Source of the DNA: Desulfobacteraceae bacterium
GTDB lineage: Bacteria > Desulfobacterota > Desulfobacteria > Desulfobacterales > SURF-7
NCBI GenBank assembly: GCA_003599865.1
Contig: QZKS01000083.1
Location: 1-39,575 of the forward strand
DNA: 39,575 bases
Direction of reading: 5' to 3'
Positions 2,579 to 17,334 of this stretch are shown one piece after another. Below the pieces are notes generated by a model. That model made no database searches. It saw nothing but the letters and a program-made list of their open reading frames with translations, and was not told the DNA's origin. Numbering within the stretch: the stretch's first letter is position 1; the number at the start of each line of letters is the position of its first letter. The translations under genes and the position numbers were made by a program.

Positions 2579-2851
2579 CTAAACAGGCTGTTTTTTCCCA
2601 TTCATGGAATAGGCAAAGGCCAGCAGCTCGGCAACCACGACATACACGTTCGGTGGAATTTCCGAGTCCAGTTCCAGTCCGGACAGAACCTCAACCAGGT
2701 CCGGATCATCTTTAACCGGTATCCCGTGTTCTTTTGCCAGCTGAATGATTCTTTCGGCAACAAGCCCCTGCCCCTTGGCGGTTACCCTGGGGGCTTTTCC
2801 TTTTGCAGGGTCATACTTGAGCGCAACCGCTTTTTTGGTTTTTTTTTTCAT
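2579..2851 (-). CDS. Stand-alone FlhB C-terminal-domain homologue (EscU/YscU switch family)
   Basis: A 90-residue protein matching only the part of FlhB that follows its autocleavage site. It has KYDPAKGKAPRVTAKGQG, LAKEHGIPVKDDPDLVE and PPNVYVVVAELLAFAYSMN, which parallel QYDASKMNAPRIVAKGAG and the C-terminus of the full FlhB encoded at 11997-13067. There are no membrane segments and no NPTH cleavage motif. In full FlhB this domain switches substrate specificity from rod/hook to filament proteins together with FliK. Its ATG overlaps the stop of the upstream FliK-like gene (ATGA), implying translational coupling. Ten A residues follow the start codon directly. Its own role is unknown; a modulator of the export switch is an inference. 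Confidence 0.88.
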   Translation of the reverse strand: MKKKTKKAVALKYDPAKGKAPRVTAKGQGLVAERIIQLAKEHGIPVKDDPDLVEVLSGLELDSEIPPNVYVVVAELLAFAYSMNGKKQPV

Positions 2852-3993: not shown

Positions 3994-4482
3994 TTATTGA
4001 AGTTCGATCAATTTTTTTTTCAGATCCAGAACCAGATCGATCTCTCCTTTGGGAAGAGACAGGATTTTGGCGATTTCGGATGAGCTTTTTCCCGTATGGT
4101 AGAGCTTTATAATGGATTCCTGCTGGTCATATACATGAAATGATGTGGATTCCGGATCGGCCGGTTCCGCCATATGGATGGCTTCTGTCCGGTTCAGCAG
4201 CAGATTCAGGCTGATGATTCTGGCGTCCAGTTTTTCATTCAAGGTGTTGATGAGATGGTTTTTTTCCCGGAGCTGTTTTTCGAAAGCGGTGGCCACATGA
4301 TTTGCCTGTGAAAGAAGCGGTTCGATCATATCCATCACCTTTTTCGAGGTTTCTCTGGAAACGTCCTTCTGCAGACGGATTCTCATATTCCTGATCAGCC
4401 GGAAAATGAGAACAATCAGGATAACATCAATGATAATCTGGAAGAGTACCCAGAATTCAATTTTCAGTCCTTCAAAAATCAT
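3994..4482 (-). CDS. Membrane-anchored coiled-coil protein with C-terminal HTH-like segment (DUF2802/DUF6115-like)
   Basis: This 162-residue protein has one N-terminal membrane segment (about 8-28, VLFQIIIDVILIVLIFRLI), a charged heptad-type helix region (about 33-95), and a short C-terminal segment reading IIKLYHTGKSSSEIAKILSLPKGEIDLVL, which has the shape of a helix-turn-helix (IAKILSLPKGEI). Small proteins of this architecture, classed as DUF2802 or DUF6115, are often found in flagellar clusters next to flhF/flhG. I cannot tell which family it belongs to by eye, and no function is assigned. DNA binding is doubtful for a membrane-tethered protein; the segment may be a protein-interaction module. 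Confidence 0.65.
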   Translation of the reverse strand: MIFEGLKIEFWVLFQIIIDVILIVLIFRLIRNMRIRLQKDVSRETSKKVMDMIEPLLSQANHVATAFEKQLREKNHLINTLNEKLDARIISLNLLLNRTEAIHMAEPADPESTSFHVYDQQESIIKLYHTGKSSSEIAKILSLPKGEIDLVLDLKKKLIELQ

Positions 4483-4544: not shown

Positions 4545-4844
4545 TCAGGCGATGGTATCCAGCAGCCTTCCCGGTGAATCCGGATTTTTTTCCGCTTCTT
4601 TTTTTTTCTTTTTTTCCGCTTCTTCTTGTTCCCGTTTCTTTTTTTCCCGCTGCTCCTTATCAGGCGTAATGGCATCGGATTGTTCGGATTCGGGAACCGA
4701 TGACAGTGCGGCCTGATCTTTTTCCTGTTGTTCCGCGGCGGTCAGCTGCCGTGGATCCATGGGCTGGGATTTGGTGCCTTGTGCCGCTTCCCTTGCGATG
4801 TCGCCTTGCTGAACGACAATGTTGAGATTTGATATCGTGGTCAT
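4545..4844 (-). CDS. Small highly charged hypothetical protein
   Basis: A 99-residue protein with no recognised domain. Its N-terminus (MTTISNLNIVVQQGDIAREA) is ordinary; residues 60-92 are extremely rich in Lys and Glu (repeats of KKK and EEAEKKKKK), suggesting a single charged helix or a disordered linker. AGGGGA is well placed before the ATG, and the gene fits neatly between its operon neighbours with short gaps, which supports it being real. No signal peptide or membrane segment is seen. Confidence 0.65.
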   Translation of the reverse strand: MTTISNLNIVVQQGDIAREAAQGTKSQPMDPRQLTAAEQQEKDQAALSSVPESEQSDAITPDKEQREKKKREQEEAEKKKKKEAEKNPDSPGRLLDTIA

Positions 4845-4889: not shown

Positions 4890-6884
4890 TTACGAAAGAT
4901 GGATGTTTTTCAGAACAATCTCCTGAATTCCTTTTTCCGGCAATGCTTTTTCCAAAGCAAGACGGATTTCCGATTTCAGCTTTGTCTGATCGATCACGGG
5001 TAACGGCGGCTGTTGTGCTTTGGATGTATCTGTTTTCTGTTTTTTTCCGGGCTCTTTCGTTTCCGTCTCCGAAACTTCCAGCTTAGCCAAGGCCTGTTTC
5101 AACGTGTCATAAATGATAAATCGAAAGAACGGCATTTGTGAAACCATCTTGTCGGCAGCGGCATCGCTCGTGCAGGTCACCTGTATATCCGCCTTGAGAA
5201 TGGAGATATCATCTCTCTGCATCGGTGCGAGAATGATAAAATCATTAAATGCAACAGACAGATCCGTTGGGGCAGCTTCCACAACAGGAGCCGCTTCCTG
5301 CAAGGTTTCGGATTCCATCACAGCCATTTCCGGTTTCATTACTACATCCTCATCGCCGGATAAAAGCAGGAACAGGGAAATGGAAGAAACCAGGAAAATG
5401 AATGCGCCAATGGAGCAGGCGATCAGCAACTTGGATCGGTACCATTTTTTCGCACCGGCATTTTTGGCCTCCGGCTGATCTTCTTCGGAACCGGTCAGGG
5501 TATCATCATCTTCCTCTAAAACGACCCGGTCCAGTTCAATTTGCGGTGCGGTATCAACCGGCACGTCTTCGCATTCGACTTCATCCCGCAGAAGAGCATC
5601 GATATCATCCTGAGAGACCAGACCGGAACCGTCACCATCGGGAAGATCAGTATCCGCTGTTTCTTCCACTGTCTCTGCAGGATCTTCGGGAGAATCTTCA
5701 CCCACTCCTTTGAGCAGCAGGTCGATATCTTCTTGTGAAATCAGGCTGGATGACTCTTCTTCCGTTTCTTTTTCTTCATCGGAGCCCTTTAGAAGGTTAT
5801 CGATATCATCCTGGGAAATGAGTCCTTCTTCCGGGTTCGCCGATTTTTGGGGGGCATCATCGGCTTCCGTGGATAACAGCATGTCAATGTCATTTTGAGA
5901 AATATCCGTGGCTTTGCCTTTTGTTTCCTCTTTTCCTTTCCCATCCGGAGGATGGCTGTCATACTCTTCCAGAAGTTGATCCAGCTCATTCTGAGAAATG
6001 AACAGGGACCTTTCCTCTTCCTGCGGCAGGGCATCCGGTTCTTCCGGAATGATGGATTCGGATTTGGCTTCTCCGGAAAGCAGTTTGTCGATGTCATCCT
6101 GTGAGATTTCTCCTCCCGGCTCGGATGGCATGTCCGGCTCGGTTTCTTGTGGAGCATCCGGAGCATCCATATGGATATCTGCTGCGAGGAGTTTGTCGAT
6201 GTCATCCTGTGAGATTTCCCCTCCCGGCTCGGATGGCATGTCCGGCTTGGTTTCTTGTGGAGCATCCGGAGCATCGGTATGGATATCTGCTGCGAGGAGT
6301 TTGTCGATGTCATCCTGTGAGATTTCTCCTCCCGGTTCGGATGGCATGTCCGGCTCGGTTTCTTGTGGAGCATCCGGAGCATCCATATGGATATCTGCTG
6401 CGAGCAGTTTGTCGATATCATCCTGTGAGAAGTCACCGCCTGCAAAGGCTGCCGCTTCGGGTTCGGCTGCCGCTTTTGACTCCACGCCAGCAGTCTCGGG
6501 ATGTTCAGGCAGCGGTGTATCGGCATGATCCCCGGATGGTTCATCCGGGAGGATAGCCGTGGGATCCGGATTGACGGAATCGGCGCTTTTCCGATTCGGG
6601 GACTGAGACTGAAGCAGATCCGCTTCCAGATCATCCAGGGAGATTTCAGCAAGCGCTGTGTTCAACAGGGACTGGATATCATCCGGGGTCAGGTCTTCCG
6701 GCGGATGGCTCCCCTCCTCTCCGTTGTGATCCGGAGCGGACTCTTCATGGGAGATATTTCTCAACAGGTCGTCAATTTTTTCCGGTCCCTCTGGATCATC
6801 CCCGTCCGCAGCCCGGAGCAGCTGGTCAATATCATCCTGTGAGAAGGAATCAGATTCCGGATTTTGATTTTTTGATTCAGCCAT
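4890..6884 (-). CDS. Membrane protein with array of FliM/CheZ-like CheY-binding motifs and FliL-like tail
   Basis: A 664-residue acidic protein in three parts. Residues 1-480 are cytoplasmic, probably disordered, and carry ten copies of an SQ-x-[DE]-[IL]-D-x-LL motif (starting near 14, 152, 188, 224, 260, 296, 328, 356, 382, 423), plus a degenerate copy near 65 (LTPDDIQSLL). This matches the FliM N-terminus in the same cluster (LSQEEVDSLLSGL) and the known E. coli CheZ C-terminal peptide (SQDQVDDLL), both of which bind CheY. One membrane helix follows (about 484-509). The remainder (about 540-664) has the FliL periplasmic pattern: a paired beta/helix region and a closing IQEIVLKNIHLS. Start at 6884 is preferred (AGG 8 bases upstream) over the ATG at 6890. 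It follows fliA. Multivalent CheY-P binding near the motor is an inference; I know of no named family with this architecture. Confidence 0.85.
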   Translation of the reverse strand: MAESKNQNPESDSFSQDDIDQLLRAADGDDPEGPEKIDDLLRNISHEESAPDHNGEEGSHPPEDLTPDDIQSLLNTALAEISLDDLEADLLQSQSPNRKSADSVNPDPTAILPDEPSGDHADTPLPEHPETAGVESKAAAEPEAAAFAGGDFSQDDIDKLLAADIHMDAPDAPQETEPDMPSEPGGEISQDDIDKLLAADIHTDAPDAPQETKPDMPSEPGGEISQDDIDKLLAADIHMDAPDAPQETEPDMPSEPGGEISQDDIDKLLSGEAKSESIIPEEPDALPQEEERSLFISQNELDQLLEEYDSHPPDGKGKEETKGKATDISQNDIDMLLSTEADDAPQKSANPEEGLISQDDIDNLLKGSDEEKETEEESSSLISQEDIDLLLKGVGEDSPEDPAETVEETADTDLPDGDGSGLVSQDDIDALLRDEVECEDVPVDTAPQIELDRVVLEEDDDTLTGSEEDQPEAKNAGAKKWYRSKLLIACSIGAFIFLVSSISLFLLLSGDEDVVMKPEMAVMESETLQEAAPVVEAAPTDLSVAFNDFIILAPMQRDDISILKADIQVTCTSDAAADKMVSQMPFFRFIIYDTLKQALAKLEVSETETKEPGKKQKTDTSKAQQPPLPVIDQTKLKSEIRLALEKALPEKGIQEIVLKNIHLS
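6108..6431 (-). repeat. Three tandem 108-bp coding repeats
   Basis: Three near-identical in-frame 108-base units, each encoding 36 residues starting with [FI]SQDDIDKLLAADIH and ending with DMPSEPGGE. They differ at only a few positions (for example Met/Thr and Glu/Lys), so the duplications look recent. A fourth motif copy (ISQDDIDKLLSGE) follows directly but its spacer is different. The outer motif copies have unrelated spacers, so the motif is conserved while the linkers are free to vary. Confidence 0.95.
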
Positions 6885-6935
6885 GGTCATTGCCTGCGGT
6901 GCGTATTTTTTCTGAACGGAATATCGTAAGGGTTA

Positions 6936-7703
6936 CTATTCCTGATAATACAGTCGAAGTTTGTTTTTTAATTTGATCAAGGCGCTTGTATGAATCTGGC
7001 ATATTCTGGATTCGGTTAATTTTAAAATACTTCCGATTTCATGCAGTGTTAATTCGTCATGATAATACAAGGAAATCACCAGCTGTTCTTTTTCGGAAAG
7101 GGTTCGGATGGCTCCGGCCACTTCATTTTTCAATTCTTTCCGGAACATCAGCCGGGATGGATCATCCTTGCTTTTCAGTTTTTCCTGAAATGTTTTTTGA
7201 ACGGAAGATTGGTTGTCCTTGTTTTTAATATAGTCATCCATGCTGAGCAGCGCTGCGCCATGGATATTGGAAAGCTGCTTGTAATATGTTTCCAGATCGA
7301 TCCCGAGTTCCTTGGCGATCTCCCAATCATCCGACAATCGTCCCTCACGGGCCTCCACAGCGGCAACGGCTTTTTCAATATCCCGTATTTTCTTTCTCAT
7401 GGATCGGGAGTACCAGTCCAGACTTCTCAGCTCATCCAGAATGGCTCCCCGGATCCGGAATTCGGCATAGGTTTCCAGGCTGACGTCCCGCTCAGGATCA
7501 AATTTATCAATGGCATCGATTAATCCGAGACATCCGGCGCTGATCAGTTCATCGAAAATCACCGAAGACGGCAGCCGTGCAGCCATTTTTGCGGCAATGC
7601 GCTTGACCAGGGGGGCATGTTTGACAATCAGTTCTTCCCGTGCCTTGGGATCAATCTTTTTGTTGTCATCGGGTGCCGGTATTTTGGTGTAGTCTGTAAT
7701 CAT
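6936..7703 (-). CDS. fliA: Flagellar sigma factor FliA (sigma-28)
   Basis: A 255-residue sigma-70-family factor lacking region 1, of the FliA/WhiG class. Region 2 is seen in VKRIAAKMAARLPSSVIFDEL and GLIDAIDKFDPERDVSLETYAEFRIRG (split here); FRIRGAILDELRSLDW is the standard FliA signature. Region 4 ends with LHEIGSILKLTESRICQIHT, the -35-recognition HTH. It would direct late flagellar genes (flagellin, chemotaxis), none of which are in the window. It starts 17 bases after flhG stops and has no obvious promoter of its own, so it is probably transcribed with the flhA-flhF-flhG unit. The ribosome-binding site is weak. Confidence 0.97.
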   Translation of the reverse strand: MITDYTKIPAPDDNKKIDPKAREELIVKHAPLVKRIAAKMAARLPSSVIFDELISAGCLGLIDAIDKFDPERDVSLETYAEFRIRGAILDELRSLDWYSRSMRKKIRDIEKAVAAVEAREGRLSDDWEIAKELGIDLETYYKQLSNIHGAALLSMDDYIKNKDNQSSVQKTFQEKLKSKDDPSRLMFRKELKNEVAGAIRTLSEKEQLVISLYYHDELTLHEIGSILKLTESRICQIHTSALIKLKNKLRLYYQE

Positions 7704-7720: not shown

Positions 7721-8647
7721 TCAGGTTGTCATTCCGGATGCCGCTTTGTAATCCATAAAACGCTTTAAAAAGAATTTGATATTTCCTTCGGAACTCCATC
7801 GGGCCGGAGCCTTGACAAGATTGTTTGCGAGCGCGCAAAATTGAGCGCTGGATGCGGCGGACGGGTACATTTCAATTACCGTACTGCGATTGATCAATGC
7901 CTGTCTCAGCAATGGATCGGTCGGCAGGAATCCGATATATTCCAGAACCACATCATTGATGAAACGTTCTACGGATTTGCTCAGGGTGAGATATACCATT
8001 TTGGCCTGCATTTCATCCTTGACCATGTTGACCAGAATTTTGAAATAATTGGTTCCGTGCCGGGAGGACATTACCTTGATCATGGCATAGGCGTCTGTAA
8101 TGGATGTGGGTTCATCGGTTGCCACAATAATGCATTCATCCGCCGCCAGATTGAAATAAATCACATTGGAAGAAATTCCGGCGCCGGTATCGATGAGAAG
8201 GATATCGACCATTTCTTCCAGAGATTCGAATTCGCTGAGAATGTTCAGTTTCTGCCCTTCCGTCAGATGGGTGAAATCCGCAAAACCGGAGCCGGCAGGA
8301 ATAATTCGAATTCCTTCCGGTCCGTCGGCCATGACTTCCGAGAGGGCTTTTTCCCCATTGATCACATGTCCCATATTGTAATGGGGATGAATCCGGAATA
8401 AGATATCGATATTGGCGAGACCGAGATCCGCATCAAGGATCATCACTTTTTTGCCCAGCCGGGAAAACGCAATCGCAAGGTTTCCGACAATATTGGTCTT
8501 CCCAACTCCTCCCTTTCCGCTGGTTACGGCGATTACTCTTGGCAGGTTGCTTCCTTTGGATAGCGGAAGGTTGTTGATACGGGCTTTTTTTTGCTGCTGG
8601 TGAATTTCGGTTTTGACGATTTCGCGTAAACTGTTTGCCTGGTCCAA
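7721..8647 (-). CDS. flhG: Flagellar number regulator FlhG (MinD-like ATPase)
   Basis: A 308-residue MinD/ParA-family ATPase that, with FlhF, sets flagellar number and position at the inner membrane. The deviant Walker A motif SGKGGVGKTNIVGNLA is near residue 43, and the MinD signature VMILDADLGLANIDILF follows. The DTGAGISSNV switch region is also present. The N-terminus (MDQANSLREIV) is the usual FlhG segment that stimulates FlhF GTPase. The start codon is TTG: AAGGAG lies 7-8 bases upstream and no nearby ATG fits. It sits 24 bases after flhF. Confidence 0.95.
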   Translation of the reverse strand: MDQANSLREIVKTEIHQQQKKARINNLPLSKGSNLPRVIAVTSGKGGVGKTNIVGNLAIAFSRLGKKVMILDADLGLANIDILFRIHPHYNMGHVINGEKALSEVMADGPEGIRIIPAGSGFADFTHLTEGQKLNILSEFESLEEMVDILLIDTGAGISSNVIYFNLAADECIIVATDEPTSITDAYAMIKVMSSRHGTNYFKILVNMVKDEMQAKMVYLTLSKSVERFINDVVLEYIGFLPTDPLLRQALINRSTVIEMYPSAASSAQFCALANNLVKAPARWSSEGNIKFFLKRFMDYKAASGMTT

Positions 8648-11996: not shown

Positions 11997-13067
11997 TTAA
12001 GATGTTTTTCCTTTGAGTTTGTAGACATATGCGAGCAGTTCTGCGACAGCCTGAAAGAATTGCGCCGGGACCTCTTCTCCGATATCGATTAATTTATACA
12101 AATTCTGAGCCAACTCTTTATTCTCAACCACAGGAACATCGTGTTCATGGGCAATTGCCTTGATTCTCTCTGCAATCCGGCCGGCACCTTTGGCAACAAT
12201 TCTGGGCGCATTCATTTTTGAGGCATCATATTGAATGGCAATGGCCAGATGTGTCGGGTTGGTGACAACCACGTCGGATTTCGGCACTTCCTGCATCATT
12301 CTTTTTCTTGCCGCCTGGTACTGGAGTGTCTTGATGCGGGATTTCACCTGCGGATCACCTTCGCTTTGCTTGGCTTCTTCCTTGATTTCCTGCTTGGTCA
12401 TTTTCATCTGTTCCATGAATTGCCATCGCTGAAAGAGATAATCCAGAATCGATAGGAAGATCATGACCACAATGACCCAGAAAAAGATTTTAAAGGCTAT
12501 CCGCACTGTGTATAAGAGAATAAAATCAATCTGCACGGTGTGCAGCATTTTGATTCCGGCGATTTCACTAATGACAATATACCATGCAATCACTCCGATA
12601 ATGATCAGTTTCAGGGTTGACTTGACGGCCTCAAAAAGCGCTTTTTTGGAAAATAATCTTCCGAAACCTTTGATAATACTTAATCGATCCCATTTGGGTT
12701 CGATGGCCTTGAAGGCGATCACAAATCCGACCTGAACAAATCCGCTCAATAGCGCCATGATAAATACAGCCGTAAAAACAGGAGCAAGGATTATCAGGGT
12801 TCGAAAGCCGAATGTCCGAAGCAGGAAAACACAATCGATGAAGTTCATCTCCGGGATGTGGTGAAACGTAAAACTTTGCCGCATAAGGGAAAGCAGTTCT
12901 TTGTAGTATAACAGATAACCAAATCCATACAAGGTCAGCAGGCCTGCCAGCAGAACGAAGACGGACTGGATCTCCGTGCTTTTGGGAACCTGACCCTCTT
13001 CCCTGGATTTTTGGAGTTTTCGCGGGGTCGCCTGTTCGGTTTTTTCCTGAAAACTGTCATCCGCCAT
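11997..13067 (-). CDS. flhB: Flagellar export switch protein FlhB
   Basis: FlhB is the export-apparatus component that changes substrate specificity from rod/hook to filament. The 356-residue protein begins with FQEKTEQATPRKLQKSREEG, the family N-terminus, followed by four membrane helices (about 30-215). The autocleavage motif NPTH occurs in VVVTNPTHLAIAIQYD, and the C-terminal domain ends EEVPAQFFQAVAELLAYVYKLK. A second copy of this terminal domain alone is encoded at 2579-2851. It lies 12 bases after fliR. Confidence 0.98.
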   Translation of the reverse strand: MADDSFQEKTEQATPRKLQKSREEGQVPKSTEIQSVFVLLAGLLTLYGFGYLLYYKELLSLMRQSFTFHHIPEMNFIDCVFLLRTFGFRTLIILAPVFTAVFIMALLSGFVQVGFVIAFKAIEPKWDRLSIIKGFGRLFSKKALFEAVKSTLKLIIIGVIAWYIVISEIAGIKMLHTVQIDFILLYTVRIAFKIFFWVIVVMIFLSILDYLFQRWQFMEQMKMTKQEIKEEAKQSEGDPQVKSRIKTLQYQAARKRMMQEVPKSDVVVTNPTHLAIAIQYDASKMNAPRIVAKGAGRIAERIKAIAHEHDVPVVENKELAQNLYKLIDIGEEVPAQFFQAVAELLAYVYKLKGKTS

Positions 13068-15757: not shown

Positions 15758-16735
15758 TCATTCTAACGGTATCTGTTTAGTTACACGAAATGCTTGAAAT
15801 CCTCTTTGAACTCCGGCATATCCCTCAAGTTTGGGAAAGCCTTCCACCATCCCGGTCAACGGGCCGTCGGCATCCTGGTCTAGTTGTATAATATCTCCTG
15901 TTTTCATATGGATCAGTCGTTCACCGGTGATCTGGACCGTTCCCAGCTGAACCCTGACATCCACCTTTGAGTCCAGAATGATTTCCCGTAACCGTTTTTG
16001 CCAGGTACGGTCGACATCCAGGGTTTCCGCCTGAAACCCCGCGGTGAGGATGCTTCTGAGCGGCTCCAGCATGGCATAGGGAAGACAGACGATGAACATT
16101 CCGGCGGATTGTTCGAGTTCGATTTCGAATTTTGTGACGATCACCAGATCCGTAGGAAGAACGATGGCTGCGAATTGCGGATTGACTTCTGATTTGACAA
16201 AAACCGTTTTGATGGGTTCTACCGGTTCCCATGCCTCCTCAAGATCTTTCAGACAGGCGATGACAACCTTTTTGACCATGGTTTCCTCGATTTTGGTAAA
16301 ATCTCTTCCTTCGATTTTTGCCTGTCCGGTTGCTTTTCCGCCGAAAAAAGTGTCAATCAGATTAAAGACCAGTTGGGTTTCCAGAACCATCAGGGCGTGT
16401 CCTCTCAGCGGATCCATGCGGAACAGATGGAGACTGGTCGGAACCGGAAGAGATCTTATGAAGTCGCCGAATTTCAGGGTTTCCATTGCTTCTGCACTGA
16501 TATCGATGGTTTTATGAAGAAGCGATGACATGGTTGCCCGGATTTCACGGGCAAAACGTTCGTTGATTACCTCAAACGTGGGCATCCTGCCCCGGATCAC
16601 TCTCTCCTGACTGGCAAAATCATATAGGTCGGTCTTCAGGTCATCGGATGGCTTGTCTGTTTCAGCCTCGATCTTTCCGGCGCTTAAACCCGATAATAGA
16701 CTATCCACTTCTTCTTGTGACAGGATTTCGCTCAT
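15758..16735 (-). CDS. fliM: Flagellar motor switch protein FliM
   Basis: FliM joins FliG to FliN in the C ring and receives phosphorylated CheY. The 325-residue protein starts with the CheY-P-binding peptide (MSEILSQEEVDSLLSGLSAG). A CheC/CheX-like middle domain (about 45-230) contains RIRG-type VIRGRMPTFEVINERFARE and LVFNLIDTFFGGKA, and a C-terminal SpoA domain (about 250-320) closes the protein. The N-terminal peptide is the same motif found in ten copies in the protein at 4890-6884. An 89-base gap separates it from fliL. Confidence 0.98.
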   Translation of the reverse strand: MSEILSQEEVDSLLSGLSAGKIEAETDKPSDDLKTDLYDFASQERVIRGRMPTFEVINERFAREIRATMSSLLHKTIDISAEAMETLKFGDFIRSLPVPTSLHLFRMDPLRGHALMVLETQLVFNLIDTFFGGKATGQAKIEGRDFTKIEETMVKKVVIACLKDLEEAWEPVEPIKTVFVKSEVNPQFAAIVLPTDLVIVTKFEIELEQSAGMFIVCLPYAMLEPLRSILTAGFQAETLDVDRTWQKRLREIILDSKVDVRVQLGTVQITGERLIHMKTGDIIQLDQDADGPLTGMVEGFPKLEGYAGVQRGFQAFRVTKQIPLE

Positions 16736-16824: not shown

Positions 16825-17334
16825 TCACTGGATGTAGAAGTCGGTAAAATACAGATTGCGGATTCCGGGCTTTTGTAAAATCGTATTAATTTTTATAATC
16901 AGTTCCTTCCGCAGTGAAATTTTTCCTTCGATACCCTGAATGTCGGCAAGCGATTTGCCGCTCAGTATCATTACCACGGCATCTTTGATCTGCGGTTTTC
17001 CGGCTTGAATCTCTTCGGAAAATCCCTTGTTGGATGATTCCAGTTCAATGGTTGTTTTCAGGAAGCGTTTTCCGCCCGGATCATTCAGGTTGACAACAAA
17101 GCTTTCCAGCGGAATGATCTGTGACCATTCACCGTTCCGGGAGCTTGTTTTGCCGGTTTTCACAGGGGAAATAGGTTTCGGATCCGTTTCAGCCGGGGAC
17201 GGCTTCAGCAGAAAATAGCCGAGCACGCCTCCGGATACAATGACAACCGCCGCGGCCGCAGCAATGACCCATTTCAACGGGAGTTTGTTTTTCCTGCCGG
17301 ATTCTTCTTTGACTTCCGCTTTTTCTTCCGCCAT
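16825..17334 (-). CDS. fliL: Flagellar basal-body protein FliL
   Basis: FliL forms a ring around stator units and supports torque generation. The 169-residue protein has one membrane helix (about 20-44) and a typical periplasmic domain with LESFVVNLNDPGGKRFLKTT, KPQIKDAVVMILSGKSLADI and a final RNLYFTDFYIQ. GGAGA sits 6 bases before the ATG. A divergent FliL-like domain also ends the protein at 4890-6884, so the cluster has two. Confidence 0.96.
   Translation of the reverse strand: MAEEKAEVKEESGRKNKLPLKWVIAAAAAVVIVSGGVLGYFLLKPSPAETDPKPISPVKTGKTSSRNGEWSQIIPLESFVVNLNDPGGKRFLKTTIELESSNKGFSEEIQAGKPQIKDAVVMILSGKSLADIQGIEGKISLRKELIIKINTILQKPGIRNLYFTDFYIQ

Follow-up and report, generated by a model that had tools for sequence, protein, structure and literature searches.

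The flagellar gene cluster on contig QZKS01000083.1 of a Desulfobacteraceae bacterium (assembly GCA_003599865.1; positions 1 to 39,575, the whole stretch analysed, are called the window here) contains a gene, designated X (4890..6884, minus strand), whose predicted product of 664 amino acids repeats ten times a short motif that FliM carries once. The locus raises the question of what such an array binds and why it should be tethered to the membrane. The answer considered probable here, if only by a small degree, is that X is anchored at the motor and serves as a multivalent docking platform for response regulators of the CheY type, one that would concentrate or buffer phosphorylated CheY (CheY-P) and alter the sensitivity of switching; that CheY is bound, that X sits at the stator and that switching is affected are all things that we infer.

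In the product of X, an acidic array precedes a single membrane helix, which a linker modelled with low confidence joins to a C-terminal domain. Ten exact copies of SQxx[IL]DxLL were counted (pattern SQ..[ILV]D.LL), the number given in the original prediction, whereas 20,000 shuffles of residues 1-490 yielded at most one (mean 0.00035). From the N-terminus, all on the minus strand, the copies are SQDDIDQLL (6816..6842), SQDDIDKLL four times (6402..6428, 6294..6320, 6186..6212 and 6078..6104), SQNELDQLL (5970..5996), SQNDIDMLL (5874..5900), SQDDIDNLL (5790..5816), SQEDIDLLL (5712..5738) and SQDDIDALL (5589..5615). Degenerate copies (EKIDDLL, LTPDDIQSLL) also occur close to the N-terminus. One stretch of the array arose by recent tandem duplication: a 108-bp (36-amino-acid) unit present in 3.2 copies with 95% matches (6082..6430, minus strand) holds copies 2 to 4 and most of copy 5, and the copies outside this repeat differ in their codons and linkers. 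The cytoplasmic part of about 485 residues is acidic (net charge -113 over residues 1-500) and the string is probably disordered. A single membrane helix, also foreseen in that prediction, was placed by hydropathy at residues ~488-513 (5352..5429, minus strand; helix 2-24 of the AlphaFold model). Pfam gave no match to the protein at E up to 1, and hence no FliM middle or C-terminal domain and no CheZ phosphatase domain. The open reading frame (ORF) extends from 4890 to 6890 (minus strand), with 666 codons from the first ATG at 6890, but the second ATG at 6884 (MAES...) is the likelier start, because relatives of the same genus (L005, L007, L033) begin with MAE or MVE there and because an upstream GCAGG is, as judged by eye, better spaced for 6884.

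As judged by profile comparison, the motif of X is the FliM-type CheY-docking consensus. A profile of 41 motif segments, run against 177,635 PDB sequences, matched best the N-terminus of FliM (8umd_C, E 0.0014) and, in third place, a FliM peptide (4iga_B, E 0.22); PMC7693769 lists entry 4iga as CheY of T. maritima together with FliM's N-terminal region. The second match, a fusion of two polyketide synthase domains (2n5d, E 0.022), was rejected as an alternative docking module, as its context is enzymatic and it scores below FliM. The resemblance to the start of FliM that had been predicted was thereby borne out, and the FliM of the window itself carries SQEEVDSLL at its N-terminus (16694..16720, minus strand), the only exact motif outside X in the six frames of the window. 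When the whole genome was scanned with Qx[DE]xDxLL written as a DNA pattern, 25 matches were obtained (10 for a backwards-pattern control), of which 10 are in X, one is in FliM and 14 are elsewhere; none of these 14 has S before Q, and one has T (TQKDVDYLF, towards the end of an ORF of 482 residues).

The C-terminal domain (4896..5258, minus strand), delimited by an AlphaFold model, Foldseek and profile searches, is by the same means identified as a FliL domain with an SPFH/stomatin-like fold. No NCBIfam family matched the tail of the window's protein, and PF03748 matched the tails of nine of 15 relatives at E up to 1 (best 4.7e-8). A profile of 15 tails had two significant matches in PDB, both to FliL (1.7e-6 and 1.2e-5), the third (E 0.83) being not significant. 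The profile-profile comparison suggested with the original prediction, made by hhalign between X tails and 17 canonical FliL proteins of the same class, gave 98.5% with E 2.8e-15. In the tail model (mean predicted local distance difference test score, pLDDT, 79; core blocks 85-98 except one loop at 56-57), the first three Foldseek ranks were taken by FliL of Campylobacter (9hmf), Vibrio (6ahq; organism as in a table of PMC7693769) and Helicobacter (7sgn), followed by stomatin; these FliL matches had template modelling scores (target) of 0.65-0.80 and a best E of 2.4e-3, with none below 0.001. The FliL-like tail of the original prediction is thus recovered by profile, by fold and by PF03748 in relatives, and by FliL precedent the domain would be periplasmic. 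A canonical fliL is present upstream of fliM (16825..17334, minus strand; PF03748, 2e-23). Two more FliL-like matches, one of them weak, were noted in the same genome (L002:970-1890 on contig C98 and L003:1480-1860 on C45); their surroundings are not flagellar-looking and both appear lipoprotein-like by eye.

X is a conserved gene in a fixed flagellar slot. The genes flhF-flhG-fliA lie in that order upstream of X in 40/40 flagellar regions fetched, and a DUF6115 gene lies downstream in 39/40 (not found in L215); as these regions (L203-L242) were chosen for a tail match, the 40/40 synteny is not an unbiased rate. In the window the left border of the slot is fliA (sigma-28; 6936..7703, minus strand), immediately upstream of X, with flhG (MinD-like; 7721..8647, minus strand) two genes upstream, both named by eye and by conserved order, and the right border is a DUF6115 membrane protein (3994..4482, minus strand; PF19610, 2.2e-9). 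X carries at least one motif in 31/40 regions; nine slots (L222-L225, L228, L229, L237-L239) contain a membrane protein with a FliL-like tail and no motif, of which L238 is nearly without an N-terminal part as read and L228 has an extra ORF. The window and 31/40 regions also have a separate fliL no more than 2.5 kb from fliM.

Full-protein matches to X were found in 17/59 relatives (the window's genome counted). The tail profile matched 124/291 genomes of the class at E up to 0.001, the weak matches including canonical fliL, and a strong X tail (83 bits or more) is present in 64 genomes, a set drawn by hand, with the motif in 58/58 of those read (G074, G080, G084, G149, G168 and G230 being outside the 58). 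A sample of 395 genomes of the phylum gave two matches at E 1e-18, both in the window's order, at a threshold strict enough that weaker relatives are possible elsewhere and with other genomes of that order in the sample. In a phylogenetic tree, 28 X tails split from 17 canonical FliL proteins (support 100/99); 19 motif-bearing X tails form one clade (90/86), with nine motif-free X tails outside it and deeper-branching, in a tree that includes few members of f35, the family with most arrays. By this phylogeny X is a FliL paralogue distinct from canonical fliL, and its history is read most simply as a single acquisition of the motif by an ancient FliL paralogue in a fixed slot, followed by multiplication of the copies. 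The copies per X number 1 to 17, with a median of 6, in 54 genomes; 65 genomes entered this count, in which G001, G037 and G054 contain runs of N and the G020 piece stops at a contig edge, and the 11 without a motif are the nine motif-free slots, G284 (a region with 100-base filler) and G076, which has 13 copies that were missed by the helix filter.

CheY is favoured as the ligand of X because other proteins that act on CheY-P, namely CheZ and FliY, carry the same arrays. CheZ proteins with two to four motif copies at the C-terminus are encoded at four loci (L142, L164, L111, L098; Pfam CheZ, 1.7e-12 to 4.4e-10), from Asticcacaulis, Pseudovibrio, a Rhodothermus metagenome-assembled genome (MAG) and a Bacteroidetes MAG (L098:2996-3988). 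A CheZ-type protein with a motif array was also noted at L161 (Asticcacaulis), the Pfam confirmation covering the other four loci. A FliY with CheC and FliN domains (L093) has two exact copies and one near copy. Within the same class as the window, the C-terminal end of 12/12 CheZ proteins read is formed by the motif or a variant of it: five end in the exact motif (SQDEVDALL, SQENIDALL; L243, L244, L276-L278), five in a DQ variant (L245, L246, L280-L282) and two in a KQ variant (L275, L279). Five of the twelve (L275-L279) come from array-bearing genomes, and in three of these (L276, L277 and L278, of G076, G037 and G031) the CheZ-like end reads ...KISQENIDALLSEYGID or nearly so, a single-copy tether thus coexisting with the X array. 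The CheZ proteins of L243 and L244 (G059 and G069) are 537 and 530 residues in length, with a long N-terminal part before the phosphatase domain; the X of G059 (L225) is without an array. The window's own genome has four CheA matches, no CheZ match and a CheY homologue (L247:4975-5340) in a che cluster, with 3h1g, labelled 'Chemotaxis protein cheY homolog', as its best PDB match (5.4e-17).

FliL is described as forming decameric rings or arcs around stators (PMC9195833, PMC12222027), the N-terminus of FliM is considered likely to face outward in Caulobacter (PMC7534056), and stator recruitment is reported to raise CheY-P binding in E. coli (PMC8440544). The FliL domain would place X around the stators, in rings or arcs at the edge of the C-ring. 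Each motif there would bind a response regulator of the CheY type, phosphorylated CheY being the likeliest, through the groove used by FliM and CheZ. Such a ring would present CheY, beside the switch, with many times the docking sites that FliM has; ten X proteins with ten motifs each would give ~100 docking sites per stator unit, on the assumption that X forms such rings. CheY-P would then be concentrated or buffered at motors with assembled stators, switching sensitivity would vary with load or stator number, and X would be a further physical link from stator assembly to local CheY-P. More broadly, X proteins could constitute a class of antennas, FliL rings with hundreds of CheY sites that couple load to CheY-P, with copy number as a tuning dial and with CheZ, FliY and unrelated membrane proteins of other phyla each having gained the array on their own as a general receiver-docking module; this wider proposal is put forward tentatively and is rather doubtful.

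Several observations weigh against CheY as the partner of X. The presence of FliM in 61/64 strong-X genomes and of CheA in 60/64 speaks for CheY, but CheA is not X-specific (57/61 X genomes and 83/96 flagellated genomes without X, p = 0.2), and the 4/64 X genomes without a CheA match at 1e-5 include G013 (92% complete, two motifs read) and G080 (97% complete); CheA was rejected as a strict requirement for X. CheZ is above the cut-off in 6/64 X genomes and in 9/96 flagellated genomes without the array (p = 1), and in view of this lack of association its absence was rejected as the reason for the array. Most array copies read DDIDxL[LM], whereas FliM of the same genomes reads xEVD[SN]LL (genomes with both read), and because these forms differ with no co-variation seen by eye, the array may be tuned to a partner other than CheY. 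Some arrays outside X have no flagellar context in their stretch, lying near gatB (L080, and L152 by eye) or an FtsE-like ABC gene (L071). Moreover, FlhG of monotrichous bacteria is described as binding the same N-terminal segment of FliM, and in Gram-positives the first 36 residues of FliY are described as enough (PMC12826062, PMC12327844). The array might then dock FlhG, a MinD-like, flagella-counting ATPase, instead of CheY, holding it at the membrane or at finished motors, away from FliM during C-ring assembly, and setting flagellar number or place; in all 40 regions flhG precedes X by two genes, although this gene order may merely reflect the general flagellar operon, and docking of FlhG would account for array genomes without a CheA match. 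Nine genomes, however, keep the slot and flhG with a motif-free X, and in other bacteria the same arrays are borne by CheZ, which is not known to bind FlhG. Because the CheZ evidence tips the balance, CheY is preferred, and FlhG, although the main and a serious rival, is judged the less likely ligand, at a low probability. The anatomy given in the original prediction (FliM-type motif, FliL tail) stands on profiles and fold, and the arrays on CheZ and FliY lend its choice of CheY a support that it did not have; FlhG, as a binder of the N-termini of FliM and FliY, was overlooked in its interpretation.

If CheY-P is the ligand, the array could also be a sink, drawing CheY-P off FliM so that switching is damped, or handing it to a phosphatase, in species of which most lack CheZ. 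The X sites would exceed those of FliM in number, CheZ is above the cut-off in so few X genomes, and CheZ and FliY, which dephosphorylate CheY, bear arrays themselves; a CheX-like gene, named by eye, was noted in one che cluster of the window's genome. But CheZ is equally rare in flagellated genomes without the array and a sink in the cytoplasm could do without an anchor of the FliL kind, which leaves this variant of the motor-anchored dock, with odds that overlap it, somewhat improbable. CheY-P or a CheY-like protein on the array might, in another overlapping proposal, act on the stator through the FliL ring and alter torque or stator number, not direction, as Cle proteins or chemokinetic CheY alter torque or stators rather than direction. 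The FliL domain and the stator-ring precedent favour such an action, as do the connection between stator recruitment and CheY-P binding in E. coli (PMC8440544) and the inhibition of Caulobacter motility ascribed to CleD, a FliM-binding CheY homologue (PMC7534056); the length of the array, however, greatly exceeds what signalling to a single stator would seem to require, and we give this proposal a low probability. Lastly, the repeats could be an acidic spacer under little constraint, lengthened by slippage and lacking a specific partner, as the recent 108-bp duplication and the presence of 4-9 copies per X across 13 genomes of one genus might suggest. This is very improbable and already disfavoured: the pN of motif codons was below that of linkers in 12/12 orthologue pairs, and below that of the tail in 10/12, at broadly similar pS, in pairs that share one member, include some close kin and had motif sites picked in one member each. 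One of I, V, L, F and M precedes S/T in all 210 motif instances (to rounding, and including one FliM copy from L225, a locus without an array), which is not forced by the pattern and is the same in FliM; and the top PDB match of the motif is FliM.

A scan for two spaced copies of the motif gave at least 114 stretches, many without an array ORF, with arrays outside the class undercounted; arrays were found on CheZ, on FliY and on membrane proteins. Among the matches listed are alphaproteobacterial proteins with a zinc ribbon, an array of the SQDDIDSLF type and a membrane helix (L063:3355-4581, L071:241-1596 and L088:4604-5779, the last with DUF3426), and large proteins with long arrays from other MAGs, including Verrucomicrobia, Planctomycetota, Hydrogenedentota and Lentisphaera (L097:775-3774, L114, L148, L156, L084, L132). 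FliY-like proteins of Lachnospiraceae and Clostridiaceae (L093, L107, L118, L076; Pfam domains for L093 only) have two or three SQ[EA]EMDAL[LM] copies in the linker between the CheC-like and FliN-like parts. A 147-amino-acid ORF of a Lachnospiraceae MAG (L105:5391-5831) was noted to contain four SQ[KEDR]EID[AS]LI copies and little else. A combination of array, membrane helix and FliL-fold tail recurs in a Nitrospirae MAG (L080:3-1454) and a Nitrospinaceae MAG (L152:2857-5136), where FliL is the best match of the tail model (mean pLDDT 62, core blocks 59-90, no E below 0.001). In other phyla one array gene is beside a lone receiver gene (L063) and one beside a receiver-HD gene (L097), and the others examined do not adjoin receiver-domain genes; a general receiver-docking module is possible.

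X resembles FliL (PF03748) in its one membrane helix, its C-terminal SPFH-like fold and its location in a flagellar cluster, and differs in being a separate paralogue and clade that occurs together with a canonical fliL in the same window. FliL has a short cytoplasmic stub before its membrane helix, whereas the helix of X follows the ~485 residues with ten motifs. The fliL gene is described as often first in an operon with fliM/fliN or beside motA/motB (PMC9195833), while X follows fliA and is not beside fliM or motAB. With the N-terminal segment of FliM, X shares a hydrophobic residue followed by [ST]-Q-x-[DE]-[ILV]-D-x-L-L, present once in FliM as xEVD and up to 17 times in X mostly as DDID, but X is without a C-ring domain. 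The C-terminal CheY tether of CheZ has the same motif, single or arrayed, on a soluble phosphatase, no CheZ domain being found in X. FliY of Lachnospiraceae (CheC and FliN) is likewise a motor-associated protein with a motif array, of two or three copies; it differs as a C-ring component with phosphatase domains, the SQEEMDAL[LM] form and no membrane helix found. The Nitrospirae and Nitrospinaceae proteins have the same architecture as X and tail models that best match FliL, but they are encoded beside gatB, include a zinc ribbon in L152, have no Pfam FliL match and are only distantly related to X in the tail (hhalign 95.7%, E 8.4e-9, two-row profile). No such array was found described in the titles and abstract starts of the papers listed, in keeping with the original prediction, in which no such system was known, and no paper was found to contain the motif strings; subscription literature was mostly outside the scope of both searches, so that absence is unproven.

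Other features were noted near X. A small ORF downstream (4545..4844, minus strand), with relatives in 28/40 regions, encodes a highly charged product with a short hydrophobic C-terminal tail and no Pfam family above the cut-off. A short ORF resembling the C-terminal domain of FlhB (2579-2851, minus strand) follows a fliK-like gene, the full-length flhB, named by eye, being separate at 11997-13067.

How motors keep the switch in range under changing load and CheY-P is an open question, on which the pool of sites in X bears: if X is a motor-anchored dock for CheY, a large and evolvable pool of CheY docking sites would sit on the stator ring. The range of 0 to 17 copies in one syntenic gene would allow a dose-response to be compared across species, and the motif array could be turned into a means of capturing CheY-P in E. 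coli. If FlhG were the ligand instead, X would show that the control of flagellar number is tethered to finished motors.

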